Shown here: in pieces, positions 8,717 through 35,351 of the stretch
Numbering within the stretch: position 1 is the stretch's first letter
How the letters are laid out: each line of letters opens with the position of its first letter
Translations under genes and position numbers: made by a program
Source: a virus
DNA: 36,953 nt
Direction: 5' to 3' (one strand)
IMG/VR virus record: IMGVR_UViG_3300042905_004854
Span: 1 to 36,953 of that record
The notes under the pieces: model-generated
What the model was told of the DNA's origin: nothing
What the model saw: the letters and a program-made list of their open reading frames with translations, nothing else
Database searches by the model: none

Positions 8717-9864
8717 TCTCCAAGAAAATAAAGTTAATAACTGAAAAAGTTTACTCTGATTCTGGCCTCGGTAAATGGTTCAACCGGGAATCCGCTGGCG
8801 GGGGTCCGGGTTGGGATCGTTACAATACTAAGGGAGAACGAGTAGGCAAGTGTGGTGATGCCAAGGAAGGTGAAGCCTATGCTGCCTGCCTCAGCCGCCA
8901 AAAGGCCGAGAAACTTGGAAAGAAAAAGATTGGGAGTTTTGTACGCAGAAAGCGTGTAGCCCAACACAAGGCAGGAAGAGGAAAGAAGGGCGAAGGCAAG
9001 AGTGGAAAGAAGCCAATCTTCGTCAAAACTGGTGTAACTGAAGTAAAGGAATGCTTTGATTACTTCTTGGTTGAAAATTCAAACCATGTAATTCCTCTCC
9101 AATTTGCTCCCATCGAAGCGCAGGAACTTCTTCCATTTGATTTGGTCATCAATGAAAATGGTGACTTCTTGAATGTAGACATGATTGAAATCACCGAAGA
9201 TGGAAAGTATGAAGTTACTTTCAGCGATGAATTTGGCTGTGAGTTGAAGGAATCTTTCACTCCCGACACAACCATGGGCTTTGTAGATGTGACCGAAGAC
9301 CAAGAATACAATCAACTTGACGAAATGCTTGAACTTCATGAAGAAGAAAAGAAGAAAGTCAAGCTCAATAAGATCATGCGTGGTGATGTCAAGAAATACA
9401 AAGTTTATGTAAAAAATGACAAAGGAAATGTCGTTAAGGTAAACTTTGGTGATCCCAACATGGAAATAAAGCGGGATGATCCTGCACGGAGAAAAAACTT
9501 CCGGGCTCGCCATAACTGCGACAACCCCGGTCCTCGCTGGAAGGCTCGTTACTGGGCCTGCAAGACTTGGAGCGCCAAGCCTGTCTCTGCCATGTTGAAA
9601 GAGTCTGAAGTCTTGGAGGAAGCCAAAAACAAGCCAAAGAATCCAAAGAAATGGTCATCATGTATTTCTCAAGCAAAACAAAAATTTGATGTATATCCAT
9701 CAGCTTATGCTAATGCTTGGGCAGCAAAGTGCTACAAGAGCAAGGGTGGTAAGTGGAAAAAATTGACAGAAGACATTGCCGAATACGCTTTGAACAACAT
9801 GAAAAACAAAATTTATAACCCAGACCTTTTTGGGTTGATCCGAAACAGAAACAGTAAAAATTAA
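8713..9864 (+). CDS. Multidomain virion-associated protein (DUF5872-like and two T4-like-phage motifs)
   Basis: The 383-residue protein joins three short Cys/Trp-rich modules. At about 13-70 is a KWFNRESAGGG...GWDRY...GKCGDA module resembling DUF5872. At about 245-290 is GDPNMEIKRDDPARRK, then FRARHNCDNPG and KARYWACKTW, a motif common in proteins of T4-like marine phages. At about 307-352 is KFDVYPSAYANAWAAK, then KGGKW. A central acidic beta-like region (about 110-200) links them. No enzymatic role is known to me. The ATG at 8713 overlaps the previous stop as ATGA, so translation is coupled. The N-terminus (IKLITE-KVYS) has an I-T-E protease-like site. Confidence 0.65.
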   Translation: MISKKIKLITEKVYSDSGLGKWFNRESAGGGPGWDRYNTKGERVGKCGDAKEGEAYAACLSRQKAEKLGKKKIGSFVRRKRVAQHKAGRGKKGEGKSGKKPIFVKTGVTEVKECFDYFLVENSNHVIPLQFAPIEAQELLPFDLVINENGDFLNVDMIEITEDGKYEVTFSDEFGCELKESFTPDTTMGFVDVTEDQEYNQLDEMLELHEEEKKKVKLNKIMRGDVKKYKVYVKNDKGNVVKVNFGDPNMEIKRDDPARRKNFRARHNCDNPGPRWKARYWACKTWSAKPVSAMLKESEVLEEAKNKPKNPKKWSSCISQAKQKFDVYPSAYANAWAAKCYKSKGGKWKKLTEDIAEYALNNMKNKIYNPDLFGLIRNRNSKN

Positions 9865-9865
9865 T

Positions 9866-9872
9866 CTAAATA
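9866..9872 (+). promoter_or_regulatory. Late promoter (CTAAATA)
   Basis: CTAAATA follows the stop of the previous gene by one base and lies 11 bases before ATG 9884. GAAGAGAAG in the gap may serve as a weak ribosome site. Confidence 0.65.
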
Positions 9873-9883
9873 GAAGAGAAGCC

Positions 9884-10438
9884 ATGAAATTCAAACAATT
9901 ACTTTCAAAAATCAACACATTGGTCGAAAATGCTCCAGAGCACACTTTCGGTGGTGGTCTTTATGTAGGAGATCCCCAAGGAGCAGGAAAAGTTTCAGCT
10001 CTTTCGGACAAGGGAACTTTCAATCTAAAACTTCCTCGGTCTATTGATGCAATCAATGCCCTTCTCCACACATTCTCAAACAGAGACTACATCGATCCAG
10101 ATGGTCTAACAGGCATCGTAAAGCAAAAGTTGAATCACTTCGGTCTTGACTTCTCTTGCAGTGGACGAGTCAACGATGGTGAAAATGTATATGAACTGGT
10201 TCAATACGGAAGCCCACAACTCGGTGTTTACGGGCAAAACCCATACGATGACATCAATAAGACAGGCTTCAAGCAAGGTGATGGAATCAAGGAAAAACTT
10301 GGCCACTCATTGAATCTAGTAGTATCCATCCAAAAGATGCCCAACGGTCTTCGCAAAGTCGGAATGATGATTGTTCCAGCCGCTTCTTCTTCGTACAACA
10401 GTGACATGGCGGATTCTGATTGTGGATGTCAACACTAA
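9884..10438 (+). CDS. Putative virion protein, unknown function
   Basis: Not recognised. The 184-residue protein starts MKFKQLLSKINTLVE-NAPEH, a short amphipathic helix with an L-V-E site like T4 capsid-targeting peptides. The remainder is a compact mixed alpha/beta-looking domain (GGGLYVGDPQGAGKVSALSD, then ELVQYGSPQLGVYGQNPYDD) without membrane segments. It ends in an unusual Cys-containing tail (SDCGCQH) that could bind metal. It has its own late promoter. A packaged or structural role is inferred from the N-terminus and promoter only. Confidence 0.6.
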   Translation: MKFKQLLSKINTLVENAPEHTFGGGLYVGDPQGAGKVSALSDKGTFNLKLPRSIDAINALLHTFSNRDYIDPDGLTGIVKQKLNHFGLDFSCSGRVNDGENVYELVQYGSPQLGVYGQNPYDDINKTGFKQGDGIKEKLGHSLNLVVSIQKMPNGLRKVGMMIVPAASSSYNSDMADSDCGCQH

Positions 10439-10445
10439 CTTATTG

Positions 10446-10844
10446 ATGCAAGAAAAAATAAACTCTCTGACAGAAGAAAACTTTATTGAATTCTGTCAGA
10501 GATATTATTTTAATCCAGAATGTTCTGGAAAGAATGAGTTCGTTGATGACCTAAAAAGAGTCAAGTACATAAAAAGATTATTGCAAAAGATTCACAAACA
10601 CAAGACCTTAAAGTCAATTCGTGAACGATTAATAATAAACCATCTTATAATTTTAAGAAATGTATTCGGGGACCAAAATTGTTCCCGAATTTTGTTTTTC
10701 AAGTTGGAACCTAGACTACATTCATATCTCAAATCTTTCACCGTATTTTTGGAATTTGATATTAAAAATTCACCTGAAGTAAAATACACGGATTTGAACA
10801 CAGATCCCAGAGTTGACAGAAAACTCTCTCAAACAGAAAACTAA
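10446..10844 (+). CDS. Conserved T4-like-phage protein of unknown function
   Basis: The 132-residue protein reads as mostly helical: LTEENFIEFCQRYYFNPEC, then DDLKRVKYIKRLLQKI, then RLIINHLIILRNVFG and RILFFKLEPRLHSYLKSF. I recognise this layout (short helical protein with INHLI...NVFG...LFFK) from T4-like marine phages, where it has no assigned function. The reading frame stays open upstream to 10371, but ATG 10446 gives the family-like start, eight bases after the previous stop. A terminator-like hairpin lies inside the gene at 10664-10690. Confidence 0.6.
   Translation: MQEKINSLTEENFIEFCQRYYFNPECSGKNEFVDDLKRVKYIKRLLQKIHKHKTLKSIRERLIINHLIILRNVFGDQNCSRILFFKLEPRLHSYLKSFTVFLEFDIKNSPEVKYTDLNTDPRVDRKLSQTEN
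10664..10699 (+). terminator. Terminator-like hairpin inside coding sequence
   Basis: ATTCGGGGAC and GTTCCCGAAT form a 10-bp stem (one G-T wobble) with a 7-base loop, followed at once by TTTTGTTTTT. It has the form of a rho-independent terminator but lies mid-gene at codons for NVFGDQNCSRILFF. It may be fortuitous or attenuate the transcript. Confidence 0.45.
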
Positions 10845-14423: not shown

Positions 14424-14494
14424 TGCGTATACAGGGATTTGAACCCAGACGGCCAGAATGGAAATCTGGCATGCTACCGTTACATCATATACGC
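14424..14494 (-). tRNA. tRNA-Gly(TCC)
   Basis: The minus strand folds as a cloverleaf: acceptor GCGTATA/TATACGC, D arm with AACGGTAG, anticodon stem CCAGA/TCTGG around loop TTTCCAT (anticodon TCC, codon GGA), T loop TTCAAAT. The T stem has one T-T mismatch. CCA is not encoded; the 3' flank is ATTT. GGA is frequent in the fibre genes. The plus-strand late promoter at 14497 begins three bases from its 5' end. Confidence 0.9.
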
Positions 14495-14938: not shown

Positions 14939-15526
14939 ATGAAACACCCAAATCAATCATTTATTGACAACTTTAATAGACCAAACCAGGGGCCAGAAGG
15001 AGTTCCAACCTATCGCTATACTCAAAAATTTATAGAAAAGAAAAGAAAACAAAAGTTTGAATATTTTGTTGAGTCTTTGAATAATCCCAAACCAAAGACC
15101 AATACTCTTGCACAAGAAATAAATCGAATCTTTTCTTACAATACTCTCGCAAAAAATACGAATAAAACTTTGTTAGAAACCAAGCAAAGTGTTGGTTCGC
15201 TGCCACAACAGTTTAATTACAATGGTTTGTTGTATGCATTCAATCAAGAATTGAATATGTACGTCAATCAACATGGACATGCAATTTCAATTGAGCAAGC
15301 CACGGCTTTCATGGAGATGGCACAACTTGAAGAAGTTGGTTCATTTGCATCAGAATCCGATACGGATGGTGGTGCAATTGCCCTTCCTTCGGTTGTTCCG
15401 GGACCACCAGAAGCACCTACTGGATTGACTGCTATGAATATAAATATTGAAGGTGTAACTTTATCTTGGCAGGATAATTCTACAACAGAAACAGAATTCA
15501 AAATTTATTATAGAACAGAAGAATAA
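14939..15526 (+). CDS. Fibre adaptor 1, ending in half an FN3 domain
   Basis: The 195-residue protein has a basic, helical N-terminus. A module at about 90-130 (NYNGLLYAFNQELNMYVNQH, then GHAISIEQATAFME) recurs in the second adaptor, and an acidic linker precedes the first strands of an FN3 domain (PPEAPTGLTAMNINIEGVTL, then SWQDNSTTETEFKIYYRTEE). The domain stops there: strands C' to G are at the start of the next gene, whose ATG shares its A with this stop (TAATG). The shared N-terminal module is inferred to attach to the virion. An in-frame TTG at 14924 is a possible alternative start. Confidence 0.7.
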   Translation: MKHPNQSFIDNFNRPNQGPEGVPTYRYTQKFIEKKRKQKFEYFVESLNNPKPKTNTLAQEINRIFSYNTLAKNTNKTLLETKQSVGSLPQQFNYNGLLYAFNQELNMYVNQHGHAISIEQATAFMEMAQLEEVGSFASESDTDGGAIALPSVVPGPPEAPTGLTAMNINIEGVTLSWQDNSTTETEFKIYYRTEE

Positions 15527-18129
15527 TGCCTAATCTAAATCCAATTACATTAGATCAAATCGACATTGATGGAAATACTTTTACTTTGGGTGCTACTCTT
15601 CCAGGTACAATTACGACTGGTGAAGTTATTACAAATATTACCGGATTAAATCCGGGTATCAGTTATTATTTTTCTGTAGTTGCTTTTAATGATTCATCTG
15701 GATATTCGGGCTGGGCAGGTCCAATTGTTGTTTACATACGACCAGAAGTCAGAACAATAATTAATGCTTATTCTTGGACTTGGCCACATTCTCCCTTATA
15801 CACAACAGCATATGGTGGAGATCCATTTATACCCATAAGCCAATTCTCCAATACTCAGGAGAATTTATTCTATCTAAGCAACAATAGTTATATAACTCCT
15901 ATTTGGGCTGCTGGTAATTTTACTTCAGCAAATTCTAGTTTGAGTAAATTCACTGGAATAACGCCACCTTTTCCGGGTGCAAATGTTACCGCGATACACA
16001 TCAAAACCGCTGGATATTTTAATTTAAATGAAAAAATTGAAAATCTTACGCCGGGTGTAACATATAATTATTCGTTCTATCACTATGTGGAAGGATTGAC
16101 TGGGGATCTTTCATATAGAATTGATCACGCTTTAGGTTTGACTACTTATATTAGACAAATTGAACCAGTTGATCAAGGTAATTTTGGTCTTAGTGAAGAT
16201 AATCCAACAAATACGATTAGATATGTCACATATCCAACGGGTGGAACTGGTTGGAAACGATTTGTTGCACAGTTTGTTACTAATCCGGGACAAACTTATG
16301 GGAACTTTTCCTTATTCAGTTATTCTACTAATGGTTCTAGATTGGGAACAGCATATGTTGCTGCACCACAATTAGCAATTGGTTCTACTGCTGCTCCATT
16401 TGTAGCAACTACTGTAATTTCAAATTGGCAAGGTGTGTGTGCAGATGATGATAAATGGTTGGCTTTTGGTGATTCTTATGGCTTAACTTACATTGCCCCC
16501 ACGATTAATCCAACTCTTGAGTTAGGTATTGCGCCAAATAATTTGATTTATGGTGAAGGTTTTTATGGAAGCAACACAGTACAAAGAACTTCCAAATTGC
16601 TTAAAGCACTTCCACAAAACAAAAGAGCCATATTGCCTGGTTATTTCTTCTCCGATGATACTTGGTATTACTATGAAGATTCTTTAAATTTTGCAAGTGG
16701 TAATTGTTACACATTCTTTGAAAATTATTATGATAGAATTGATTCAGATCAAAATTATCCCTCTATTTGGCCATTTGCTGGTGTCAGTTATGGAAAAGGA
16801 ATATGGAATTCCATTTTAACATCCTTGGCAAATACTGGTGCTACATTTGATTATTTAATCAGTAATGCAGAGATGTACGGCAATTATGGCAATTATAATT
16901 GGAATACTCCGGGTTTGACAACTGCAATGTCATCAGGTGGGAAAGGTTCATATTATTATGATTCTTATAGAGGTTTAACTTCTTGGAATGATTGGTTGAT
17001 TTCCTACGGAGCAACAATTGCCAATGTCATGGGTGCCAATGATGCTGATGGAAATGCAAAAATTTATGAAGGTTGGTCTAGTGGTAAATTGGATTTTGCA
17101 GTATGGGACATGATCAATCGTGCTCATGAGTTAAGAGCACTTGATGCCATATTTGAAGGAACTACGGCTTATTATCCAAATGCAGTATTGGCTGAATATG
17201 AATGGTCTTACATAACGGATGGAAATCCAATTGATGGACCAGCAAATATAGCTGGTAATCCAGATTTTTGGCAATATTACTTTGGAAATGCGTCAGCACC
17301 ACAGTTGTATGGTTGGATGAGTGGTATTGTTGTCAATTCAGGTATATGTGGATCAAATCCTTCATATCTTTATTTTGCTCCAAATAGTGCTGGTGGAGCA
17401 GGGCCTCCAAATTTTGGATTGGCTCCCGGTGATACAAGACCACAAAAGAATGCTTGGACAAGTTTTGTAATGGGTCTTCAAGCGGTCAGAAGTTCGAAGA
17501 GAGCACGACCAAATCTACAAATAACTCCTTGGATTGCTTCAGTTAAATTCCCAGGACAAGATGCACAATATCCCGGAGGAAGTGCAGATAGACCACAAAT
17601 TGGATTTGCAGACATTAATGTTGGTTATAATGCTCAACAAGGTTTGACTTTAAATGTTGCTGGTGGAAATAGTGCTTATTATTATGAAATGATTCGTCAT
17701 GCTGCGCTATCTGGAGTAAAGGGATTCCTATATTGGAATACATCGTCCTTTATAGATTATAGAATAGATTCCGATCCAAATTCAACTGTAAATTCTTCTC
17801 TTGTTAAATTTGCAAACAATCAAGGTGGTACTTATTTCATTGAAGACATGCAAAATTTAAATTCTGTGCTCAATGACGTAAATGATAAACTTGGTGGATT
17901 CACACTCACAACTGCTGATACAAGTAGAATAAGTTGGTTGGCTCCTTATCTTGCATCAGGAGCCCCCGGACCAAATGGTGTCACTTGGTGGTGGAGAATT
18001 ACGACAAATCCCGGAAACACCACGTTTGTCAATGGACAAACATTGTCTGTTGCTAATAATAATATTGTCGGAACTTGGGTTTCGACTACCGGGCCAACTT
18101 TGGCTGGAATAAGTATCACATACACCTAA
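15526..18129 (+). CDS. Receptor-binding ligand 1: FN3 C-half, jelly-roll-like, barrel-like glycosidase fold
   Basis: The 867-residue protein begins with the second half of an FN3 domain (ITGLNPGISYYFSVVAFN, residues 1-70) completing the domain of adaptor 1. A beta-rich region (about 75-290) with LTPGVTYNYSFYHYVEG and APQLAIG resembles phage carbohydrate-binding jelly rolls. The rest (about 295-867) matches ligands 2 and 3 and has alternating beta/alpha character with DYLISNAEM (Glu449), ending in TWWWRITT...VNGQTLSV. This looks like a TIM-barrel glycosidase-like domain with a small C-terminal beta domain; activity is unproven. It lacks the lectin-like tail of the other ligands and is one uninterrupted gene. 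Confidence 0.65.
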   Translation: MPNLNPITLDQIDIDGNTFTLGATLPGTITTGEVITNITGLNPGISYYFSVVAFNDSSGYSGWAGPIVVYIRPEVRTIINAYSWTWPHSPLYTTAYGGDPFIPISQFSNTQENLFYLSNNSYITPIWAAGNFTSANSSLSKFTGITPPFPGANVTAIHIKTAGYFNLNEKIENLTPGVTYNYSFYHYVEGLTGDLSYRIDHALGLTTYIRQIEPVDQGNFGLSEDNPTNTIRYVTYPTGGTGWKRFVAQFVTNPGQTYGNFSLFSYSTNGSRLGTAYVAAPQLAIGSTAAPFVATTVISNWQGVCADDDKWLAFGDSYGLTYIAPTINPTLELGIAPNNLIYGEGFYGSNTVQRTSKLLKALPQNKRAILPGYFFSDDTWYYYEDSLNFASGNCYTFFENYYDRIDSDQNYPSIWPFAGVSYGKGIWNSILTSLANTGATFDYLISNAEMYGNYGNYNWNTPGLTTAMSSGGKGSYYYDSYRGLTSWNDWLISYGATIANVMGANDADGNAKIYEGWSSGKLDFAVWDMINRAHELRALDAIFEGTTAYYPNAVLAEYEWSYITDGNPIDGPANIAGNPDFWQYYFGNASAPQLYGWMSGIVVNSGICGSNPSYLYFAPNSAGGAGPPNFGLAPGDTRPQKNAWTSFVMGLQAVRSSKRARPNLQITPWIASVKFPGQDAQYPGGSADRPQIGFADINVGYNAQQGLTLNVAGGNSAYYYEMIRHAALSGVKGFLYWNTSSFIDYRIDSDPNSTVNSSLVKFANNQGGTYFIEDMQNLNSVLNDVNDKLGGFTLTTADTSRISWLAPYLASGAPGPNGVTWWWRITTNPGNTTFVNGQTLSVANNNIVGTWVSTTGPTLAGISITYT

Positions 18130-18132
18130 ATA
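18126..18132 (+). promoter_or_regulatory. Late promoter (CTAAATA)
   Basis: CTAAATA contains the TAA stop of ligand 1 and lies 10 bases before ATG 18143. Confidence 0.65.
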
Positions 18133-18142
18133 AGAATAGACC

Positions 18143-19999
18143 ATGGATCCAAGAATAATTCGCCAATATCTTGCAGGTATTCAAGGAGCCAAAAATCCTT
18201 TTCTCATGGAAAATTCTCGTTTTCTGGGAAATCTTCCAGAAAACATTGTGTACAATGGTCTTCTGTACACCTATAATCTCCGTGAAAATGCTTTCATAAA
18301 CCAATTTGGTCATAAAATTGATCCAAGCGCTGCTCCAGCATTCATTACGGAAGCCAAGGCATTCGAACAGCAGAACTTGGCTATCTTGGATATTTCTTCA
18401 AGTTCTTCTGACAATAGTTCTTCACGACCCACTCCAGAAAGTGGAGCAGAAAAACCCCAAGGATTAATTGCAAATCCGGATAATACTAAAGATCCAACTA
18501 CTGGTATTATCATTACATTCACAATTAATGATCCTGATAAGGCAGACTCTTTTATCCTTTTCCGTGCAACAGATCCAAAAGGACCCTTTACTCAAGTTAA
18601 AACTGAACCAAATAAATTTACAACAGCCTTTATTGATGATGGTTTGACTCCAGGTACTACTTATTATTATCAAGTTGCTGCCGTATTGGATGGTAAGCAA
18701 GGACCAACATCTGATGTTGTATCCACAACTACAGATACCGTTAAACCACCTTCAATTGGTATTACAGCACCTAGTGGATTAACTGCAACTTCAATTGCAC
18801 AAAATAGAGTTGATCTTTCTTGGACTGACAATTCCACAAATGAACTTGGATTCTATCTATATCAATCCTTGAATGGTTCATCATTTACTTTGATCGAAGG
18901 ATTAGTTGCTGGAGCCACAACAGCCTCTGTAAAGGGACTTTCTCAAGACAGCAATTATTGGTACCGAGTACAAGCATTTGCAACCGGAAGCACATCTGCA
19001 TTCTCCAATACTGTTGCACTACGAACTCTTCCAACAATTCCAACTGCTCCCAGCAATCTTTCATTGCTGATTGGTGGAACTTCACAAATTCAGGTTTCTT
19101 GGCAAGACAACTCAAATAACGAACAATTCTTCAATCTTTTCCGATCTACAGATGGCGTTTCGTATCCATTCGGAATCACGCTTCCAGCAGGTTCTACAAC
19201 ATACTTGAATACAGGTTTGAGTGCTGGAACCACTTACTTCTACAGAATAAATGCCGCAAATACAGGAGGAACTTCAGGCTTTGCAGGACCAACATCTGCA
19301 ACCACTCTTCCAACAATTCCAACTGCACCGTCAAATCTAAGATTTACCAATAGAACAACAACAAGATTGGATTTGGCTTGGAATGACAATTCCAACAATG
19401 AATCTGGATTCTTGATTCAATCTTCATTGACTGGTGTTACCTATACAAATTTAGATACTGTTGGTGCTAATGTAACTGGTTATGAAGTCAGGGGATTAAA
19501 TGTAGGAACAACCTACTTCTTCCAAGTTGCTGCATTCAACGCAGGAGGAACATCATCCTTCAGTGGAGCAACTTCATGGCAAACCTTGCCAAATGCACCT
19601 GCAACACCAGCATTTACATCAATTCTTGCTGGATCATCAACACAAATTAATATAAATTGGACAAATGTTGCAAATGAAACTGGATATAACCTATATCGCT
19701 CATTGAATGATGTAAGTTATACTGGAATCACAACATTGGGTTCTGATGTAACTGGCTTCACCAACAGTGGTCTATCAGCAGGAACAACTTATTTCTATAA
19801 GATTGAAGCATTCAATGTGGGTGGTACTTCTGCTCTATCGGGTGCAACAAGTACAATTACCTTGCCAGCAGGAACAACTCCATCTGCCCCATCAGGATTC
19901 ACTGCAATATCAGCGACAAGCAATTCAGTAACTCTGCAGTGGACAGACACATCTACCAACGAAGATGGATTCCTGATCTACTACAGAGGAATAACCTGA
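18143..19999 (+). CDS. Fibre adaptor 2 with five FN3 domains and a terminal half FN3
   Basis: The 618-residue protein starts with the adaptor module (VYNGLLYTYNLRENAFINQF, then GHKID...AFITEA) shared with adaptor 1. A Ser-rich linker and five complete FN3 domains of about 90 residues follow, each with a W.DNS.NE motif in strand B/C and GTTYFYR(V/I).A.N in strand F. Residues from about 582 begin a sixth FN3 (APSGFTAISATSNSVTLQWT, then DTSTNEDGFLIYYRGIT) that stops after strand C. The next gene starts one base later with the missing strands. FN3 arrays are common spacers on phage virions that aid adhesion to carbohydrates. Confidence 0.8.
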   Translation: MDPRIIRQYLAGIQGAKNPFLMENSRFLGNLPENIVYNGLLYTYNLRENAFINQFGHKIDPSAAPAFITEAKAFEQQNLAILDISSSSSDNSSSRPTPESGAEKPQGLIANPDNTKDPTTGIIITFTINDPDKADSFILFRATDPKGPFTQVKTEPNKFTTAFIDDGLTPGTTYYYQVAAVLDGKQGPTSDVVSTTTDTVKPPSIGITAPSGLTATSIAQNRVDLSWTDNSTNELGFYLYQSLNGSSFTLIEGLVAGATTASVKGLSQDSNYWYRVQAFATGSTSAFSNTVALRTLPTIPTAPSNLSLLIGGTSQIQVSWQDNSNNEQFFNLFRSTDGVSYPFGITLPAGSTTYLNTGLSAGTTYFYRINAANTGGTSGFAGPTSATTLPTIPTAPSNLRFTNRTTTRLDLAWNDNSNNESGFLIQSSLTGVTYTNLDTVGANVTGYEVRGLNVGTTYFFQVAAFNAGGTSSFSGATSWQTLPNAPATPAFTSILAGSSTQININWTNVANETGYNLYRSLNDVSYTGITTLGSDVTGFTNSGLSAGTTYFYKIEAFNVGGTSALSGATSTITLPAGTTPSAPSGFTAISATSNSVTLQWTDTSTNEDGFLIYYRGIT

Positions 20000-20000
20000 A

Positions 20001-20207
20001 ATGTCTAGTGTATTCTTTAATGGGAATACCTACACTTTTGGAGCCACAGTTTCGGCAAATCCGGGAACTGGGACAACTTCATATATTTTTGGTGGGTTGA
20101 GTTCAGGAGAGACTTATGGTTTCATTCTAAGGGCATTTAATGGGTTTGGGTTCTCAAATTTTGTGGGACCAGTTACAAAAGTAACATTATCAGAAATTCC
20201 TGAAGAA
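20001..20207 (+). repeat. FN3 C-half repeat, copy 1
   Basis: The 69 residues coded here match the copy at 24589-24795 at 59 positions by my count, with identical spacing and an identical DNA run of over 20 bases around 20055. The pair flanks the whole of ligand 2. Confidence 0.85.
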
Positions 20208-20849
20208 CAAAGAACTATAATTGCTGCTTTTGAATGGGATAGTCCATATGAAATAATAACACCATATACCAAATATATCGATCCAACACCAATAAATAAT
20301 ACAAACTTATTGATTTCAAGCACCAATTTAACACCAACACAAGCAGGTGGAACCTGGTGGAATACGGATGGTAATAGTCCAGTAACACCACCCATGTCTA
20401 TTACAACTGGACATACTGCCCCAGATGGCTCAACAACGGCATGGGCATTCCAAAGCAGTTCAAATACTGGATGGAGTGTAGCAAGAACCGTATATCTAGA
20501 AAAAGGATTTACATATTATCTTTCATTCTATTACGATCATTCAAGGGGAAATACAGGAAACATATCATATCCTGCCATGTATTGGGATGGAACTGATATT
20601 GTTGGGATACAGTCTGTATCAAGACAACAAATTTTGCCTGTAATTGGTACAATGACAACGTCATCAGAAACTGCACTACCTGGAACATCTACTGGTTGGA
20701 CCAGATATGCCTTCCAATTCTACACTTTATATGGAGAAGCAACAAGATTGAACATTGGTGGTTTATTTAATATTCCAAGTGGAAATGCTTTAGGTGTTTC
20801 AAATGGTATTCGTTATTATTGGGGACCACAATTAGAAAAGGCAACTTGA
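20001..20849 (+). CDS. Ligand 2a: FN3 C-half plus jelly-roll carbohydrate-binding module
   Basis: The 282-residue protein opens with FN3 strands C' to G (NTYTFGATVSANPGTG, GGLSSGETYGFILRAFNG; residues 1-69), the complement of the half domain ending adaptor 2. A jelly-roll-like module follows (about 75-282) with TAPDGSTTAWAFQ, FTYYLSFYYDHS and the closing YYWGPQLE, a signature of carbohydrate-binding modules in phage tail proteins. It matches the first third of ligand 1, which there is fused to the barrel. TGA-A-ATG couples it to adaptor 2. Confidence 0.7.
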   Translation: MSSVFFNGNTYTFGATVSANPGTGTTSYIFGGLSSGETYGFILRAFNGFGFSNFVGPVTKVTLSEIPEEQRTIIAAFEWDSPYEIITPYTKYIDPTPINNTNLLISSTNLTPTQAGGTWWNTDGNSPVTPPMSITTGHTAPDGSTTAWAFQSSSNTGWSVARTVYLEKGFTYYLSFYYDHSRGNTGNISYPAMYWDGTDIVGIQSVSRQQILPVIGTMTTSSETALPGTSTGWTRYAFQFYTLYGEATRLNIGGLFNIPSGNALGVSNGIRYYWGPQLEKAT

Positions 20850-20861
20850 TAGGAACATAAT

Positions 20862-23800
20862 ATGTCAACAGGACCAACATTTTATTATCCAACTACTGAT
20901 CAGCCTTACTCAAGAATATTACCAGCAATCAAATATTATTATGACAATGCAGGGAACACTGTTTATGAAGTTGGATTTGATAAACGATTAAATTTTTGTT
21001 TAGATTCAAGTAATACTTATACAGCACCATTTGCAGATTTTTCCGGAGGAGGTTTGGCTGGTCAATTTTTTGGTGTTGGTAATAGAAGGGGAATTACACT
21101 TTCAGACCCAGCGTATACAACAATTGAACTTTTTAAACAATTTCCTAAAGGAAAAAGGGCCACACAACCTTTTTTGTTTAATACAACAACTTTGTGGCAA
21201 TTTGCAGATGATGCTACCTCTCGTCCAGGTAGTTCATTGAATATGTATGATTCAAATGGTAATCAAATTACGAAATCCAATTCAACTTGGGGTTTTTGGC
21301 CTGATGCTGGCATCTCATTTACAAATGCTTGGGCTGATTTAGTATTCAGTAGTATGGCAGATGTAGGAGCCACATTAGATTATCTAATGATAGATAATGA
21401 AATGGTAATAGTGGATTCTTCTGTTACCAATTCAATAACAGGAGCAACTTTATTCAATCAATCTTGGAGAGGTTTGTCATCTTGGTTAGAATATTATTTA
21501 TTGGAAGGTGGGAAGACTTCTTATGATTTTTCAAATACAACTCAAGGATTCATAAACAGTTCTGCATGGAGTGCTGCTTGGAATAGAATCAAAAATAAGG
21601 CAATGAATGATGCGTTTGTTCCAGCATTGACTACTTATAATACTGAAGCTGTTGTGAGTGATTACATGGAATATGTGTATCCATACACACCGGGATATAC
21701 TGGATTGTATATTTTAGGAGAATATGGTACTCCTGAAACAATAACACATAGACTTCCAGCTGGAAACGGAACATCTCCTGTTTTATATGGATGGTTTTCT
21801 GTCGGTCCTGTTGCAGACAACGTAAATTTTGGTCAAAGAACACCTGCTGTTTATTATTATGATCCAACAAAAATTATGCGATATGGAACGTCGTATGAAG
21901 ATTCTCAGTTTGACAAATATTTTACACTTGGTCCTTGGAGTAGTTTTATTTCTTGTGTTTCTGAAATGAGACAAGCAAAATGGGGAGCACCACACCTTCC
22001 AGTAACTCCATGGATTCCTTCGCCTTGGCAAGCTGGACAATATAATTTTGGAATCGGTACAATATATAAAAGAGAAACTGCATCAAGCACATTCCCTTGG
22101 GGCAAAGATCTTGGAGTTGATCAAATGCCAGTGGAAATTGGCCACAATCGTTGGAGATTTAGATTAATTAATACCGAGACAGGTGGATTTACTGGGCCAA
22201 CTGGATTAACAAATGGAATTAGAATAACAACGCAATCTAGTAGTCAAAAATTGTTATCGTGGATTTATAATGGAATTACAAGTGGTACAACATACGTATT
22301 CTCTTATTATATAAACACATCCAGTGGAAATACTAATTTTAATTTTGGTGTTAATAATTTTAGAAGAACACACTATAACAAGCCTACCGGAATAACATTT
22401 TATCAAACTTTACCAGCTGCAACTGGACCATTCTATTCATTCACTACTGGTGGAATATATTATCCTTCTGGAACCTCAAATTGGACTCAAGTTCAATATG
22501 AATTTTCAGTTCCATCTGATGATCCTTTGAATCCAACATTTAATCCAACACTTGAGGTAACTGTATTTGAAGATTCAATAACAAGTTCTGGAATGACAAT
22601 GTTTATTACAAATCCAACATTTGAAATAAAGGGAATTACTTTAAATACTTCAGTAATAGACATAACATCGATTTTGTCAGAAGATAATCAAATTATAGGA
22701 GCAAATAGTGCACCATGTGGTTTTGCGGTTTGTGAAAAGGGTTACAACCCACGACAAGCCATATATAATGCTGGTAATAGAGGTAATAGTGCATATTTAT
22801 ATGAATTAATTCGTCATTGCTGTTTGCTGGGAGCAAAAGCATTTGGGTGGTTCAATTCATTTTCTTTTGTAGATAATTCATATGATGGAGCACGATCATA
22901 CGGATTTAATGGTCAAAATGCGTTAGATGCAGGAAAACAAAAAATTGCAATGACAAAAGGATTCACCGGATTCCTTGAAGATTATAAATTAATGAATGAA
23001 ACCTTAGATGATGTTCATGAAAAGATAAAAGGGTTTACACTAGCAACCGCTGGTTTGGATGAACGTTGGAATTGGTCACTACCATATCATGCCTCTGCTG
23101 CACCAGATACAAGAGGTCAGACATGGTGGTGGAGAATTACTGTACAAAATGGATACACACTTTATGTTAATGGAATGACTTTGCCAACAGCAAATGGTGA
23201 AGTTGGGTTGTGGTTGGGTACAACTGGTCCAACATTGGCTGGAGTAAATATAACACACACAGAACCTATTCCACCACCAGAACCAACAGGAATAACCGCT
23301 CTTAGAGAATTTAATTTCTATCAAATGAATTCTTTGGCTGATTTGACTGGAAATTCTCTGTCCTTCAGTCGTGGATCATCTGCATCATTTATTGGTGCAA
23401 GTGGATTCTTAGTAACTGTAGGTTCAGGGCAACCTCGTTTCCATTATGATCCAGAAACATTAAGACCAAGAGGAATTTTGCTAGAGCCATCTGTTGCAAA
23501 TCAATTAAACTGGAGTGAATCCTTTGCTTCAACTGGCGGTTCTCAAAACAACTGGATTGATACAAATCTTACAAGAATAACAGGAAACACATCACCATCA
23601 AATGATCTATCTGCAATAAGATTTACGGCTACAGGAGCAAATGCCACATTGCTGTCTACAAATGCTGTTGGAAATACAACAGATGATAAAGTATTGAGTA
23701 TATGGTTGAAAGGAATTACAGGAAATGAGAGTGTTCAATATACTGTTGACGGTGGAACATCTTGGAATAATATTCCAAACATAAAAAATTCTTGGAACCG

Positions 23801-24563
23801 ATTTGCATTTGGGCCAATATTCAATGGTGTATGTTTCTTCGGACACCATGTTGGTTTCCGCCTAGGTAATACTAATGATTCCGTGATGATATGGGGAGCT
23901 CAATTAGAAAACTTCGTTTATCAACTTCTTGGAAATGGTTTTATAACAGGTAATAGAGTTGATCCAAGTTATTATCTTCCTTTAGAAACATCTTACATAA
24001 AAACTTTGGGTTCGACAGTTACAAGAAATGCCGATTCATTGACATTCCCAGCAGCAACTGCGTGGCTTGGAAACACCTATGGAACCATAATAATTGAATC
24101 AGAAAATGTAAGTTTTGATAATAGTATACAGTTTGGTTTAAATACACCAAGTGGAATCTGTGGTGGTGGTGCGATAACTCTTGGTCCAAATAATAGTGGA
24201 TTTAGATTTGATTTAAATGATAGAAGATTTGGACCAAATGTTCAATCTGTAAATACAGTAGGAAACTGTCTTACTACAAGAGCTGGCGCAGGACCAAACA
24301 CACCATACAAATATTGTTGGGGATGGTCTCCAATAGGATTTAAGGTTGCTTCTAATTCAATCATTAAAACTATTCCTTACGCTTTGGGGTGGGGAAATCC
24401 ACTTTCATTTACTCCACCTTCATGCACAATAAAATCAATTAGATCTTTTGATAGAGTATTTGAGGATTCGATTTTAAGACAATTTGCAATGGGTGGAGTA
24501 ACCCAAATCGGATGGTTGAACAATGGAGACGGTAAGTTAAAACCAGTTACGTACTATACTTAA
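20862..24563 (+). CDS. Ligand 2b: barrel-like domain with one jelly-roll insert and C-terminal lectin-like domain
   Basis: The 1233-residue protein aligns with the barrel-like part of ligand 1: DYLMIDNEM places Glu180 at the conserved acid (N-E is the typical clan-A acid/base pair), and TQPFLF, SVLYGWFS and GAKAFGWFNSF also match. Between TPWIPSPW (about 382) and CEKGYNPRQA (about 623) it carries an extra beta module (SGTTYVFSYYINTSSGNT) absent from ligand 1. From about 817 a lectin-like domain seen in many phage fibres begins (SLSFSRGSSASFI, PRFHYDPETLRPRGILLEPS, MIWGAQLEN). AGGA precedes the ATG. Two stops (TGA TAG) separate it from ligand 2a in the same frame. Confidence 0.65.
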   Translation: MSTGPTFYYPTTDQPYSRILPAIKYYYDNAGNTVYEVGFDKRLNFCLDSSNTYTAPFADFSGGGLAGQFFGVGNRRGITLSDPAYTTIELFKQFPKGKRATQPFLFNTTTLWQFADDATSRPGSSLNMYDSNGNQITKSNSTWGFWPDAGISFTNAWADLVFSSMADVGATLDYLMIDNEMVIVDSSVTNSITGATLFNQSWRGLSSWLEYYLLEGGKTSYDFSNTTQGFINSSAWSAAWNRIKNKAMNDAFVPALTTYNTEAVVSDYMEYVYPYTPGYTGLYILGEYGTPETITHRLPAGNGTSPVLYGWFSVGPVADNVNFGQRTPAVYYYDPTKIMRYGTSYEDSQFDKYFTLGPWSSFISCVSEMRQAKWGAPHLPVTPWIPSPWQAGQYNFGIGTIYKRETASSTFPWGKDLGVDQMPVEIGHNRWRFRLINTETGGFTGPTGLTNGIRITTQSSSQKLLSWIYNGITSGTTYVFSYYINTSSGNTNFNFGVNNFRRTHYNKPTGITFYQTLPAATGPFYSFTTGGIYYPSGTSNWTQVQYEFSVPSDDPLNPTFNPTLEVTVFEDSITSSGMTMFITNPTFEIKGITLNTSVIDITSILSEDNQIIGANSAPCGFAVCEKGYNPRQAIYNAGNRGNSAYLYELIRHCCLLGAKAFGWFNSFSFVDNSYDGARSYGFNGQNALDAGKQKIAMTKGFTGFLEDYKLMNETLDDVHEKIKGFTLATAGLDERWNWSLPYHASAAPDTRGQTWWWRITVQNGYTLYVNGMTLPTANGEVGLWLGTTGPTLAGVNITHTEPIPPPEPTGITALREFNFYQMNSLADLTGNSLSFSRGSSASFIGASGFLVTVGSGQPRFHYDPETLRPRGILLEPSVANQLNWSESFASTGGSQNNWIDTNLTRITGNTSPSNDLSAIRFTATGANATLLSTNAVGNTTDDKVLSIWLKGITGNESVQYTVDGGTSWNNIPNIKNSWNRFAFGPIFNGVCFFGHHVGFRLGNTNDSVMIWGAQLENFVYQLLGNGFITGNRVDPSYYLPLETSYIKTLGSTVTRNADSLTFPAATAWLGNTYGTIIIESENVSFDNSIQFGLNTPSGICGGGAITLGPNNSGFRFDLNDRRFGPNVQSVNTVGNCLTTRAGAGPNTPYKYCWGWSPIGFKVASNSIIKTIPYALGWGNPLSFTPPSCTIKSIRSFDRVFEDSILRQFAMGGVTQIGWLNNGDGKLKPVTYYT

Positions 24564-24574
24564 AACAATAATAG

Positions 24575-24581
24575 ATAAATA
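24575..24581 (+). promoter_or_regulatory. Late promoter (ATAAATA)
   Basis: GATAAATA lies 7 bases before ATG 24589, so ligand 3 can be transcribed independently of ligand 2. No such motif precedes ligand 2a. Confidence 0.6.
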
Positions 24582-24588
24582 ACTTAGA

Positions 24589-24795
24589 ATGTCCTATATA
24601 ATTTTTGAAGGCAACACCTACACATTTGGAGCAACAGTCTCGGCAAATCCGGGAACTGGGACGACTTCTTATGTCTTTGGTGGATTGAGTTCTGGGTGGA
24701 CTTATGGGTTCATTATTTGGGCTTTTAATGGGTTTGGGAATTCAAATATTGTTGGACCAGTTACCAAAGTTACTTTATCTGAAATTCCAGAAGAA
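24589..24795 (+). repeat. FN3 C-half repeat, copy 2
   Basis: Direct repeat of 20001-20207. Recombination between the copies would remove 4588 bases holding ligand 2a and 2b and bring ligand 3 next to adaptor 2. Confidence 0.85.
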
Positions 24796-25494
24796 ATAAG
24801 ACCAATGATTGGTGCTGCTTCATGGGCTTGGCCACATTCCAGATTAAATAATTCTATTACAATAGGTTCTGGAAGTGAATTAAATTTAATACCTGTAAGT
24901 GAAGATATGAGCAATCGTTCCTATTGGTCATATCCCACTCAAACTTCTGCATTAGGTGGAAGTGTTAAAGGAGCAACGATGACAACAGGATTTACTGCTC
25001 CAGATGGGACAAATACTGCATTTAAATATGAATTTGGAAATACTTCTGATTCTGGATATAGGACGATTACTCCATTATTAAATATAACACCAATTTATGG
25101 TGGTACATATATTGCTTCAATTTATGTCACTGGAACAAATTATGGAGCAACATCTTGGAATACTAATTTTTATACTTTAGTTTCTGGTAGTGCTTTAATG
25201 CCAGGATATCAGCAACAGATATTACCAACAACAGGAACTAAAACCACATCTACACAATTAAATATTAATTTTTCTGGATATTGTGGAGCAACGTGGAATA
25301 GATTTGCATGGGTTCTTTACATAGACCCATCATCACCGGGATTTAATTCAACATTAGGATATATAGACACAAGATATTGGAGTTTTATGCGTCCAACAGC
25401 AAATGCTGGACAAATAGGAGAAATGTATCTTTGGGGACCACAATTAGAACCCGTGGATGTAATAATTCCAGGTTTTACGGGAGAATCAGAGTAA
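24589..25494 (+). CDS. Ligand 3a: FN3 C-half plus jelly-roll carbohydrate-binding module
   Basis: The 301-residue protein has the same plan as ligand 2a: FN3 strands C' to G (residues 1-69), then a jelly-roll-like module with TAPDGTNTAFKYEFG, YGGTYIASIYVTG and YLWGPQLEP. Unlike ligand 2a, the gene before it does not end in an FN3 first half, so its half domain has no partner next door. The most likely partner is adaptor 2, whose half domain fits both ligands. The jelly roll is more diverged from ligand 2a than the FN3 half is. Confidence 0.7.
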   Translation: MSYIIFEGNTYTFGATVSANPGTGTTSYVFGGLSSGWTYGFIIWAFNGFGNSNIVGPVTKVTLSEIPEEIRPMIGAASWAWPHSRLNNSITIGSGSELNLIPVSEDMSNRSYWSYPTQTSALGGSVKGATMTTGFTAPDGTNTAFKYEFGNTSDSGYRTITPLLNITPIYGGTYIASIYVTGTNYGATSWNTNFYTLVSGSALMPGYQQQILPTTGTKTTSTQLNINFSGYCGATWNRFAWVLYIDPSSPGFNSTLGYIDTRYWSFMRPTANAGQIGEMYLWGPQLEPVDVIIPGFTGESE

Positions 25495-25495: not shown

Positions 25496-28400
25496 ATGGC
25501 AGAAACACTAGCACCATCAATATACACGGCAACTACCCTTCAAGGGGCATTAGAACCATTTTATGCTGTTCCCTATCAAATCTATAGAGATGCAGACGGA
25601 AATACTTTGTATGAAACATCAATCACAAAAGTGATTGAATATGCAAATAGTCCGGGAATGACTTATTTGGGTCCATTCATAAGTGGAATAAATCCTTGGT
25701 TTTTTCAAACAACAGCCCCAGGCCCAACGGCTATTAATACTAGATTTATTGGTTTAACTTCAGCCCCAGTTTCAGAGGAATCTTATTATGTAATGAAAAA
25801 TTTATCGGAAGGAAGAAGGGGTGTTTTAGGTGTTGCTATGATTTCCGGAACACCACCAGGATTCAATCAATTTTTTGAAGATAGAATACTAGAACCATCA
25901 TCATCTACAAATAGAACTTACTATAAACAAGATTGGACGACAACGACATCCACAGGTGCTCTTTTTAGTATATGGCCAACAACAGGAGTAAGTTCAGTTG
26001 GATCAATATATAAGACTTGGTTGCAAAGTGCATCAAATACAGGTGCTACCGTAGATTACATAATGACAGATACTGAAAATTTGGGTGAATTTCAAGATTA
26101 TATTGAGATAGCATCACGAAGAACAGCATTAATTGGAAATACTCAATTTTTTAATCCTTGGCAAGGCATTTCATCCATTTGGGATTATTATCAATATGCT
26201 GGTGGAATTACAATAACAGGAACAACCTACGATTCTGATGCTTGGAGATACGCAAAAGAAAGATATAGAGGACATCATTGGAAATTGGCAGTAGCTGATC
26301 CTCTGCAACAAGTATTTCCAAATTCAATGATGTCTAATTATGACTTTTATGAAGGTCTTTCAAATGATGAAACTTATGATCAAAATTCATGCACATATGA
26401 CGGAAGAGTCGATATAGAAAGATCCGTTGCAGGAAATGCATCATCTCCAGTACTTTATGGATGGGTTAGACAAGCTGCAAGACCAGAAAATGAAACTCTT
26501 TCAATTGTTTCAGTTGTTTCAGATTTTTATCGCACAAAATTAATAACAAGAGAACAAAGACAAACAATTTATTCATCGATAAGATCACCTTTTGATAAAA
26601 TATTCCGTCTTGGTCCTTGGACCAGTTTTATGTTTGCATTGGCTGAGTTAAGGGAAGGAAAAAGACATCGACCAGATCTTCCCTCAAATCCTTGGATTTC
26701 AGATGCATTGACTACAATGGACACTGCTTTTGCACTTACTCCTATATTTGATAGATCGACTTCAGGAAGTCCACCCGAAGTTCTTCATAACTCTTGGAAT
26801 AGATTAAATTTTCCACGTGCAAATTTTAGAACAAACTTAGCCGATTATGCAGGTTCATCGACTGCAATAAGCATGAATAATGTTGGTATGAATGGTGTTG
26901 TAGCATCGGTGAATAATGGAATTTATTACCGTTACAATATAACTGGAATAACCTTTGAAGGAAATACTTCAACAATACAAATCAATACAATAGGAACAAC
27001 AGGTGTCACTGCTGCTTTGGCACTTTACATGAATAATATTACATCTGGTGTGACTTATGTTTTTTCTTATGAAATTGACTTAGATAGAGGATTTACTGGG
27101 GGTCTTTCCAGATTCATTCTTTGGAATACAACAGATAATATCTATTTTGCTCCATGGAGACCAACTTCAACTACAAATCCAACAGGAATTACATATCAAC
27201 AAATTTTACCAGTAACTTCATCATTTGTAAACAGAGAATCTACAATTGGTTATACAAGTGGTGATTCTGGTTGGACAAAAGTTGCTTGGAGATTTATTGG
27301 GCCGTCAACACCTAGAGTTGGAATGAATCTATATTATGCTCCTAATTCAGGAACAACATCTGGTGGTTATACGGCTTATTTAAGAAATCCCACATTAATA
27401 ATAGAATCTTCTGGTGCAACGGTATCTATAAATCCCTTTGATTCTAGATATTATCCAACAACAAGCAATACTTTATTTGAATATGCTTTTAATGGTTTGA
27501 CTTCTGGGATTACTTATGTTTGGTCATATTATAATCATATAAACAATTCAACAGGACTGACTTTCTTTGGAAATCAACAAAGAATAGATCATTTAAGTTT
27601 ATCAAAATATGGTTTGACAAATGGGATTACCTTTTACCAAACTCTTCCTGTAACAGGTGGTCCACATCATATTTCAGGAAATATAAATTATAGTTCTAGT
27701 ACTGGTTGGACAAAATTTGAATGGGAATTTTTATTACCACCAGATACAACTTCACAAGAAATTCTATTCAATCCTACTACTAGGCTTTCTACAGTTTATA
27801 ATTCAAATTATTATTATTCACTCACGGATGCAAGTAGCAGAGAATATTTGGCAGGTATAACTGCCTTTTTCTCTCATGCTGAATTTGGAACAAGAAGTGG
27901 AACGGGAATAAGTTCTTACAATACCCGTCAATTTTTAGATGAATACAATCATGGTTTTAAGAATTCTGCTTCAGGTTTACTTTGGAATACTTCTGCCGGA
28001 ATTGGAATAGGACATGCTACAAAAGGATACAATGAAAAAGAAGGCATGTATTATACAGACTACGGTGGAAATTCTGCATATTATTATGAACTAGTAAGAC
28101 ATGTTTGTATGCATGGAACAAAGGGAATGGGTTTCTTTCCAATAGGAAGTATGCGTGATTATGGTGTAACTGGAACCTATTCTACTGGTCGTGCTCAAAT
28201 CAGTTCGGGAAGAAATATTTATTTACTTTCAGGAAAAACAACTTACATACCAATTTTTTCTAAATTCAATGAAGTCATGCAAGAAATACATGACAACATA
28301 AAAGGATATACACTTACATGTCATACAGATTTAATTGATTGGACTTTACCTTATGTTTATAGTGGTGTACCAGATACAAAAGGAAATACTTGGGTATGGA

Positions 28401-29773
28401 GATTAACGGTAAAACCGGGATATACTTTATATTGCAATGGAAATACTTTAAGTGCATTTACTAATCCAGGGATGTGGATTAAAACACCCGGATCGTGTTT
28501 TGGTGTCGTTAACATTTCAACAGAAATTTGGCCTCCACCTATAACACCACCTGATATTGGTCCAGTGTCAAAAGAAATAAATTTTTTGACAATGAGCAAT
28601 ATAAGTGATTTGACTTCTGCTGGTTGCACATTCAGTCGCGGAAGTACGGCAACATATATCGATTCAAATGGAAAAGTTACCACCGTTGGTCCAAATGTAC
28701 CAAGATTTGAATATTTTGCGGATACTTTACAACCACGTGGATTACTACTGGAAAATGCTGCTACTAATTTAATAAATTGGAGCGAGGCTTTTGCATTAAC
28801 TGGTGGATCCCAAAATAACTGGGTTGAAACAAATTTAACACGAAGTTTGGGTAATACGGCTCCATCAGGTATTACTAATTCAATTAGATTTACAGCAAAC
28901 AGTTCTAACGCATCATTGATGTCAAGCACTGCTGCAAGTGGTTCCACATATGCTGCATTTAGTATATGGATTCGTGGAATCACTGGAAATGAAAATGTTT
29001 TCTATACTTTAAACAATGGAATAACATGGTCTGGAATTTCTGGAATTTCTAATAGTTGGCAAAGATTTGGATTTGGACCAGTTACGGTCATTCCTCAAGT
29101 TGGCATAAGAATTGGAAATACAGGTCAAGCAATTGAACTTTGGGGCGCTCAAGTTGAGAATAGAACATTCTCAGATTATGCGTGGAATTCTTTTGTTAAT
29201 AATCCATATACATCATACATAAAAACCGATGCAAATATTGCATCAAGAATGGCAGATATTTGTAATGTAGAAGGAATTAGTTTTAGTTCTTGGTTTGGTT
29301 CTACTTATGGTACAATAGCCTTTGAAAATGAACGCTTGCAATTAAAAATAACAGGAACTGGATCAAACAATTTTATTAGTTATCAACCTTATGATGAAAG
29401 ACGGGCTCTATTACAATTCAATAGTTCAGCATATTCGTTGTCAGATAATACAATAGATCGATCATTATACGATTCGCTTTTATTTCCTTTAAATACTCCT
29501 ACTAAATTTGCATACACATATTCTCCTATGGGGTGGCAATTCTGTCAATCATTCAATTATTCCTACAGCGGATCTGTAAAAAGAACTCCAATAATAGAAG
29601 GAGCAAATAAAGTTGAATTTAGAAATAATATCAATGGATTTGCTTCTGAAGGTCATGCTCGTAAATTCCAGTATTGGAATTATTCGGCCACTGAATCTGA
29701 ATTAAAACAACTTGCAAGATCTGAAATACAAAACTATGGAGTATTTAATCCTCACGACAGAGTAATTTGTTAA
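25496..29773 (+). CDS. Ligand 3b: barrel-like domain with two jelly-roll inserts and C-terminal lectin-like domain
   Basis: This 1425-residue protein is the longest in the window and follows ligand 2b in plan. The conserved acid is Glu194 in DYIMTDTEN; VLYGWVRQA and LGPWTSFMFALAELREGK match the other ligands. Between NPWISDA (about 400) and GHATKGYNEK (about 840) lie two beta modules, each with an ITSGVTYVFSY- or LTSGITYVWSY-type strand, where ligand 2b has one and ligand 1 none. The C-terminus (about 1020-1425) has FSRGSTATYIDSNGK, PRFEYFADTLQPRGLLLENA and ELWGAQVEN. It starts one base after ligand 3a stops. Receptor binding or polysaccharide cleavage is inferred. Confidence 0.65.
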   Translation: MAETLAPSIYTATTLQGALEPFYAVPYQIYRDADGNTLYETSITKVIEYANSPGMTYLGPFISGINPWFFQTTAPGPTAINTRFIGLTSAPVSEESYYVMKNLSEGRRGVLGVAMISGTPPGFNQFFEDRILEPSSSTNRTYYKQDWTTTTSTGALFSIWPTTGVSSVGSIYKTWLQSASNTGATVDYIMTDTENLGEFQDYIEIASRRTALIGNTQFFNPWQGISSIWDYYQYAGGITITGTTYDSDAWRYAKERYRGHHWKLAVADPLQQVFPNSMMSNYDFYEGLSNDETYDQNSCTYDGRVDIERSVAGNASSPVLYGWVRQAARPENETLSIVSVVSDFYRTKLITREQRQTIYSSIRSPFDKIFRLGPWTSFMFALAELREGKRHRPDLPSNPWISDALTTMDTAFALTPIFDRSTSGSPPEVLHNSWNRLNFPRANFRTNLADYAGSSTAISMNNVGMNGVVASVNNGIYYRYNITGITFEGNTSTIQINTIGTTGVTAALALYMNNITSGVTYVFSYEIDLDRGFTGGLSRFILWNTTDNIYFAPWRPTSTTNPTGITYQQILPVTSSFVNRESTIGYTSGDSGWTKVAWRFIGPSTPRVGMNLYYAPNSGTTSGGYTAYLRNPTLIIESSGATVSINPFDSRYYPTTSNTLFEYAFNGLTSGITYVWSYYNHINNSTGLTFFGNQQRIDHLSLSKYGLTNGITFYQTLPVTGGPHHISGNINYSSSTGWTKFEWEFLLPPDTTSQEILFNPTTRLSTVYNSNYYYSLTDASSREYLAGITAFFSHAEFGTRSGTGISSYNTRQFLDEYNHGFKNSASGLLWNTSAGIGIGHATKGYNEKEGMYYTDYGGNSAYYYELVRHVCMHGTKGMGFFPIGSMRDYGVTGTYSTGRAQISSGRNIYLLSGKTTYIPIFSKFNEVMQEIHDNIKGYTLTCHTDLIDWTLPYVYSGVPDTKGNTWVWRLTVKPGYTLYCNGNTLSAFTNPGMWIKTPGSCFGVVNISTEIWPPPITPPDIGPVSKEINFLTMSNISDLTSAGCTFSRGSTATYIDSNGKVTTVGPNVPRFEYFADTLQPRGLLLENAATNLINWSEAFALTGGSQNNWVETNLTRSLGNTAPSGITNSIRFTANSSNASLMSSTAASGSTYAAFSIWIRGITGNENVFYTLNNGITWSGISGISNSWQRFGFGPVTVIPQVGIRIGNTGQAIELWGAQVENRTFSDYAWNSFVNNPYTSYIKTDANIASRMADICNVEGISFSSWFGSTYGTIAFENERLQLKITGTGSNNFISYQPYDERRALLQFNSSAYSLSDNTIDRSLYDSLLFPLNTPTKFAYTYSPMGWQFCQSFNYSYSGSVKRTPIIEGANKVEFRNNINGFASEGHARKFQYWNYSATESELKQLARSEIQNYGVFNPHDRVIC

Positions 29774-30047: not shown

Positions 30048-30899
30048 ATGATCGTCAAAAGAGGAAATAAGTTCGTTGTAATGGATTCCGAAGGAGAAAA
30101 AGTCCTTGGAACCCATGAAACCAAACAACAAGCAGAAAAGCAATTAACTGCTATTCATATTTCCCAAAAGAAGAGAAAATCACTCAAAGAGTTTCTTGAA
30201 GAAACTTCTCAACTCACTCTACAATACCACGACCAATTGAATCCAAATCTTTGGGAAAACAACAAACTAAAAGAAGAAGTCAGAAACAAACTTCTTCAAA
30301 TAGCCGATGTGTGGACAAAGTTTGCAAAGATTCCTTCAGAAGCTGTTGAGGATGTATTGGTTGTTGGAGGGAATGCAAACTTCAACTATACACCCTATTC
30401 TGACATAGATCTCCATATTCTCGTAGACAAGTCAAAGATTGCAGACTGCCCAGAAATACTTGATGAATACCTCAAAGACAAGAAGCAACTCTGGGCACAC
30501 TCACATGACATAAAGATCTACAGCCACGATGTCGAAATCTATGCCCAAGACATCTCAGAGCAAGTTCCAGCCAATCAAGGCTCTTATAGCCTAACACAGA
30601 ACGAGTGGTTAAACGAACCCAAGCAAGAAGAAGTAAATTTGGAAGATCCTGAAATTTCATTGAAAGTCAATGAACTTATTAACAAAATTGAAGGTATGAT
30701 TTCTTCTAAGGCAAGTGACGAATCTTTCACAAAATTGAAGGAAAAGTTTCGTACAATGAGATCTGCTGGCCTAAAGAAAGCAGGAGAATTTTCAGTTGAA
30801 AATTTGGTATTCAAGGAACTTCGAAACCGTGGATATTTGGATAAAGTGAATGATTATATTCTAAGCACACAAGACGAAAATCTAAGCCTTAAAAATTAA
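30048..30899 (+). CDS. Nucleotidyltransferase-fold protein, possibly virion-associated
   Basis: The 283-residue protein begins with a small module (GNKFVVMDSEGEKVLGTHET, then KQQAEKQLTAIHI) found at the ends of several phage head proteins. KSLKEFLEETSQ, a capsid-targeting-like peptide with L-E-E, follows at about 44. Residues 105-127 carry the polymerase-beta-type motif VGGNANFNYTPYSDIDLHIL with the Asp pair, and DVEIYAQD near 160 supplies the third acid. This is the catalytic signature of the minimal nucleotidyltransferase superfamily (toxin, tRNA and antibiotic nucleotidyltransferases). Substrate is unknown. Late expression fits packaging or late modification. Confidence 0.75.
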   Translation: MIVKRGNKFVVMDSEGEKVLGTHETKQQAEKQLTAIHISQKKRKSLKEFLEETSQLTLQYHDQLNPNLWENNKLKEEVRNKLLQIADVWTKFAKIPSEAVEDVLVVGGNANFNYTPYSDIDLHILVDKSKIADCPEILDEYLKDKKQLWAHSHDIKIYSHDVEIYAQDISEQVPANQGSYSLTQNEWLNEPKQEEVNLEDPEISLKVNELINKIEGMISSKASDESFTKLKEKFRTMRSAGLKKAGEFSVENLVFKELRNRGYLDKVNDYILSTQDENLSLKN

Positions 30900-32643: not shown

Positions 32644-32714
32644 TTCCTTCGCTAGGATTCGAACCTAGAAACAGAGATCCAAAGTCTCCAGTGTTACCGT
32701 TACACCACGAAGGA
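32644..32714 (-). tRNA. tRNA-Gln(TTG)
   Basis: Acceptor TCCTTCG/CGAAGGA, D arm with AACGGTAA, anticodon stem GGAGA/TCTCT around loop CTTTGGA (anticodon TTG, codon CAA), T arm CTAGG-TTCGAAT-CCTAG. Discriminator A; CCA is not encoded (flank ATTT). Its 5' end overlaps the methyltransferase stop codon region by 15 bases, and its 3' acceptor strand provides the ribosome site of the co-chaperonin gene. Confidence 0.93.
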
Positions 32715-35348: not shown

Positions 35349-35351
35349 AGT

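Follow-up and report, generated by a model that had tools for sequence, protein, structure and literature searches.

The window analysed in this work is the whole of one IMG/VR virus record (IMGVR_UViG_3300042905_004854), 36,953 bases in length. It contains a gene (30048-30899) belonging to phrog_36119, whose matches are annotated in some records as nucleotidyltransferase-like and whose best matches (about 50% identity) lie in large phages of Synechococcus (164-178 kb); on the basis of this identity, the window probably belongs to an uncultured relative of these phages. Genes for tRNA-Gly (14424-14494), tRNA-Gln (32644-32714), and tRNA-Glu (35274-35349) are located on the minus strand, and an ORF at 4117-5073 carries a long TPRPTETPRPTE repeat, with a second frame open too (4427-4951).

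The genes considered here all lie on the plus strand. The first of them encodes adaptor 1 (P0001, 195 aa; 14939..15526), which consists of an N-terminal part followed by a lone N-terminal half (N-half) of an FN3 domain. This half, referred to as type A and comprising strands A-B-C, occupies the last ~37 residues (15413..15523) and terminates in FKIYYRTEE; the last ~35 residues match positions 2-38 of the 84 positions of Pfam fn3, and a local HMM gave 87 bits with the match 1 aa from the end of the protein. The ATG of the next gene overlaps the stop of adaptor 1 by one base, and the first ~72 residues of its product (15526..15741) represent a C-terminal half (C-half) of type A, with strands C'-E-F-G (fn3 42-74 of 84). 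The remainder of this protein, cargo 1 (P0002, 867 aa; 15526..18129), would embed a beta-sandwich CBM-like domain, an alpha/beta region with marginal glycoside-hydrolase-like matches, and a C-terminal beta domain, according to a low-confidence model.

Adaptor 2 (P0003, 618 aa; 18143..19999) shares with adaptor 1 the motif YNGLxYxxN..NQxGH in the N-terminal part, which is followed by five FN3s and by a lone terminal N-half of type B (19880..19996; fn3 positions 1-37) ending in FLIYYRGIT. One base past its stop begins the gene coding for the plug protein P0004 (282 aa; 20001..20849), composed of a type B C-half (20001..20192; fn3 42-78) and a CBM_4_9-like domain (weak match). Cargo 2 (P0005, 1233 aa; 20862..24563) has a phrog_5939 tail domain and is homologous to residues 344-866 of P0002, without the C-half and the CBM-like part of the latter. 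A second type B C-half (24589..24780) opens the plug protein P0006 (301 aa; 24589..25494), whose partner is probably cargo 3 (P0007, 1425 aa; 25496..29773), which also has a phrog_5939 tail domain. The pairs P0004+P0005 (20001-24563) and P0006+P0007 (24589-29773) resemble a P0002 divided at the point where its CBM-like part meets its main body, suggesting that a domain boundary, too, has served as a place of gene splitting in this region. The C-halves of P0006 and P0004 are 84% identical (64 codons) and the whole proteins 40%, a pattern that, as far as it can be read from the sequences, is that of a conserved plug and a diverging cargo.

The sequence-only reading had described this region as one FN3 domain repeatedly split between adjacent genes. 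This holds for the two adaptors, both of which end after strand C and are followed by genes starting with the remainder of the domain. As for the gene at 24589, the same reading was right in assigning a C-half to its start; however, the C-terminus of P0005, encoded by the preceding gene, does not carry an N-half, and P0006 is therefore an unpaired C-half rather than a case of adjacent-gene split.

The comparison with Pfam fn3 (PF00041, gathering cut-off 25 bits) revealed that the single halves fall below the cut-off (about 15-24 bits each), whereas the joined type A or type B halves reach 27.9-43.9 bits in five pairings, that is, scores qualifying for PF00041 and comparable to those of the intact FN3 repeats of adaptor 2 (22.9-45.7 bits). 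The joined halves of one related contig (L006, see below) gave 16.1 bits, under the cut-off. When used as a query, the joined type B halves matched the FN3s of six other viral records, each match running uninterrupted over the joint, and the match in HJTV-4 falls inside a single annotated gene; the C-half alone gave no match. Both the scores of the joined halves and these matches across the joint indicate that the split is not a product of chance, as the sequence-only reading had supposed. In the alignment with intact repeats, the break falls in the C-C' loop every time, in both junctions of the window as well as in the relatives, with about 6-16 extra residues at the chain ends; thus, the structural point of the break is indeed always the same. 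The break thus lies in the CD loop and core residues are retained by both halves, which are the sequence features expected of FN3 fragments able to complement each other. Sequencing error, already regarded as improbable, can be rejected as the source of the split, which recurs in several different IMG/VR contigs.

The IMG/VR searches yielded eight related contigs, and complementary FN3 halves in adjacent genes were found among these relatives as well. All terminal N-half matches end no more than 2 residues from the stop (local HMM scan). The window harbors two lone N-halves and three C-halves; the corresponding numbers are three and four in G001 (L003), one and one in G002 (L004), two and three in G003/G005 (L005/L007), one and one in G004 (L006), one and two in G006/G007 (L008/L009; the second C-half was seen in G006), and zero and zero in G008 (L010). 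Hence, genes with N-halves and genes with C-halves occur together in the window and in G001-G007 and are both missing from G008; one kind never occurs alone. Adaptor 2 of G002 and G004 lacks the terminal N-half, and no C-half gene comes after it. The cargo and adaptor 2 genes of G002 (L004/L045) are broken across several frames, apparently as a result of assembly or read errors; this contig served mostly for the analysis of the adaptor 1 junction with its two halves. The adaptor 1 genes of L008 and L010 directly carry other cargo, without FN3 halves.

Some of the relatives exhibit a different arrangement of the halves. In L006 the N-half is placed at the end of the adaptor, and the only C-half forms the C-terminus of the next gene, past a region with a GDSG motif; given this position, a simple local fusion of the two genes would give no ordinary FN3. 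This cargo gene (8591-9934) is possibly protease-like, as judged by eye, and Pfam and PDB sequence searches with its GDSG part returned no family. In L051, a relative of the L006 partner, the protein is kept without the C-half, and the surrounding DNA examined revealed no N-half. Adaptor 1 of L005 and L007 carries a tandem pair of N-halves, and three C-half genes come after it. The L003 gene at 9705-10589 has a type B C-half at the start, then two FN3s, and a type A N-half at the end. A C-half gene of 164 aa (L005 11270-11764, also present in L007) seems to stop abruptly after one FN3-like domain, and might possibly be a truncated converter gene like that of L003.

No intact fused version was found among the near relatives. 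Similarly, searches of cultured phages with the C-half and the adaptor N-terminal parts, and of bacterial and archaeal genome contigs, gave no match, and a DNA pattern scan of viral contigs for the adaptor 2 junction returned three matches, all in contigs already known. Since the related contigs are only about eight and all belong to one phage group, the splits they share are not to be counted as independent events.

A first alternative is that programmed frameshifting, or else ribosome hopping, joins adaptor and cargo covalently at the junction and thereby restores an intact FN3. The addition of Ig-like domains by frameshift is established in phages, in both directions (PMC5009743), and the adaptor 2 junction, ACC TGA A ATG (+1), hardly differs between the window and related contigs. 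For adaptor 1, however, the relative frame at the junction is 2 in the window, L004, and L005 but 1 in L003, and the last codons differ among the adaptor 1 homologues, with no conserved slippery site seen there. Moreover, every C-half placed at an N-terminus possesses a separate ATG right at the boundary, the C-half of L006 sits far from the junction, and about half of the C-half starts are not immediately preceded by an N-half, so that local recoding cannot serve these genes. In other words, the combination of a conserved recoding site and a frame relation yielding one fused product, typical of the frameshift-added Ig-like domains, was not found, although at adaptor 2 the +1 context might in principle allow a shift. 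The varying frames and the unpaired C-halves imply that frameshift fusion fails to explain the whole set; we therefore reject it as the common cause of the splits and regard it, on the whole, as unlikely. It is a serious rival at adaptor 2 only, where a minor fused product is possible.

It might also be proposed that the halves are remnants of recombination or gene fission, the FN3 repeats having served as crossover sites for swaps of cargo modules, with no joint structure being formed. The tandem near-repeats and the mosaic gene content would fit such a history, as would the truncated-looking gene of 164 aa that closes the L005/L007 array. However, pairwise pN/pS values (type A: N-half 0.14-0.65, C-half 0.12-0.50; type B: N-half 0.17-0.30, C-half 0.14-0.45; intact FN3 preceding N-half B: 0.15-0.18) indicate that both halves are under purifying selection, i.e., constrained rather than decaying. 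Decaying remnants would also be difficult to reconcile with the intact fold signature of the joined halves, with a break point that is identical everywhere, and with the co-occurrence of the two halves; accordingly, we consider this explanation quite unlikely. The conservation of the C-halves, together with the divergence of the cargo, is what marks the docking part in systems made of an adaptor and exchangeable receptor-binding proteins.

The number of C-halves raises a further issue. Fibre proteins are often trimers, and C-halves outnumber N-halves; hence, a C-half might dock onto another C-half within a trimer, or onto the edge strand of an intact FN3, with the N-half docking elsewhere too. 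However, no contig has only one kind of half, and in L006, where the C-half has been relocated, the two kinds are nonetheless present once each. We hold this possibility to be very improbable. The excess of C-halves (3:2 in the window) also counts against the plug-and-socket reading given below, in which some plugs must then share a socket or have none.

Structure models were obtained with AlphaFold2. In the model of L003 9705-10586, where a C-half and an N-half are present in one chain, the strands are regular and the best confidence is reached at the two halves (pLDDT ~51-71 for the C-half and ~56-70 for the N-half), in a model that is poor overall. In the model of P0002, which has a C-half and no N-half and is likewise poor overall, the C-half shows broken strands and a pLDDT of 24-45. 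The contrast lends weak support to a completion of the C-half by an N-half, the comparison being between two low-confidence models and confounded by alignment depth. Concerning the function of the cargo, Foldseek on P0002 gave marginal matches only, including agarase, mannanase, and carbohydrate-binding modules, and a cargo profile matched the PDB head spike fibre 6tb9 (E 6e-7). These weak carbohydrate-related matches suggest a carbohydrate-active cargo.

On the whole, we think it likely that the FN3 is completed in trans and acts as a plug-and-socket joint between an adaptor and an exchangeable, probably carbohydrate-active cargo. Such a joint had been proposed in the sequence-only reading; the part of that proposal concerning the joint agrees with halves that are complementary, recurrent, constrained, and co-occurring, while its "receptor-binding ligand" would be a matter of interpreting the weak fold matches mentioned above. 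According to this model, the C-termini of adaptors 1 and 2 would supply strands A, B, and C, and the cargo or plug proteins strands C', E, F, and G; the two chains would be made separately, their translation probably being tightly coupled where adaptor and cargo genes meet, and would jointly complete one FN3 fold non-covalently. The joint would thereby fasten a carbohydrate-active fibre cargo onto an adaptor that we infer to be virion-bound. P0004 and P0006, being plugs of one type, might both use the socket of adaptor 2, and through a shared socket alternative cargoes might be mounted or exchanged. Trans pairing is also the simplest explanation for the C-terminal C-half of L006, for the unpaired extra C-halves, and for the tandem N-halves of L005/L007.

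A broader and more tentative idea, to which we give somewhat less than even chances, is that a single phage might possess a whole construction set based on split-domain trans-complementation: half-FN3 plugs and sockets of distinct types (A, B, and that of L006), tandem sockets, and plug-to-socket converters (L003 9705-10589), giving rise to branched or chained fibres with interchangeable cargo. If the proposed joint is real, then phages attach fibre cargo by natural split-domain complementation, which would explain whole-gene cargo swaps leaving the adaptor untouched and would provide ready, typed pairs of self-assembling protein halves. It would also predict that other phages hide inter-chain joints, which annotation would miss because each half is under the domain cut-offs.

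To our knowledge, a split-domain joint of this kind is otherwise known only from protein engineering, and we found no papers on naturally split FN3s in phages in the literature searched. The completion of an Ig-like fold of one chain by another is known from the donor-strand complementation of chaperone-usher pili. The joint described here, as deduced from the gene sequences, would be similar in this respect; nevertheless, in the pili one strand is donated, whereas here the FN3 is divided into halves of three and four strands. Another parallel concerns the site of the cut: an FN3 monobody split in the CD loop (residues 4-45 and 46-98), corresponding to the C-C' loop of this work, refolds from two non-covalent peptides into a working FN3 that binds its target (~100 nM), with a Tm of ~45 C versus 78 C for the unsplit protein (PMC11666773). 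According to the same paper, which cites Dutta et al. (2005; PMID 16199661), earlier work had shown complementation to be most efficient with these fragments. Unlike these artificial and less stable molecules, the phage split is encoded by separate genes and is conserved. The frameshift-added Ig-like domains of phages (Fraser et al. 2006, as reviewed in PMC5009743) likewise place an Ig-fold next to a reading-frame break in structural genes; however, they are C-terminal extensions on a proportion of the protein, while here the break falls inside one domain, the frames are not constant, and many C-halves lack an N-half upstream. Finally, the branched receptor-binding complexes of Ackermannviridae (PMC11414711) combine a conserved attachment part with diverging cargo and carry several cargoes per virion, an organization that the genes analysed here also seem to suggest; in those phages the exchange occurs via conserved N-terminal domains of tail spike proteins, whereas here it would occur via a shared split FN3.
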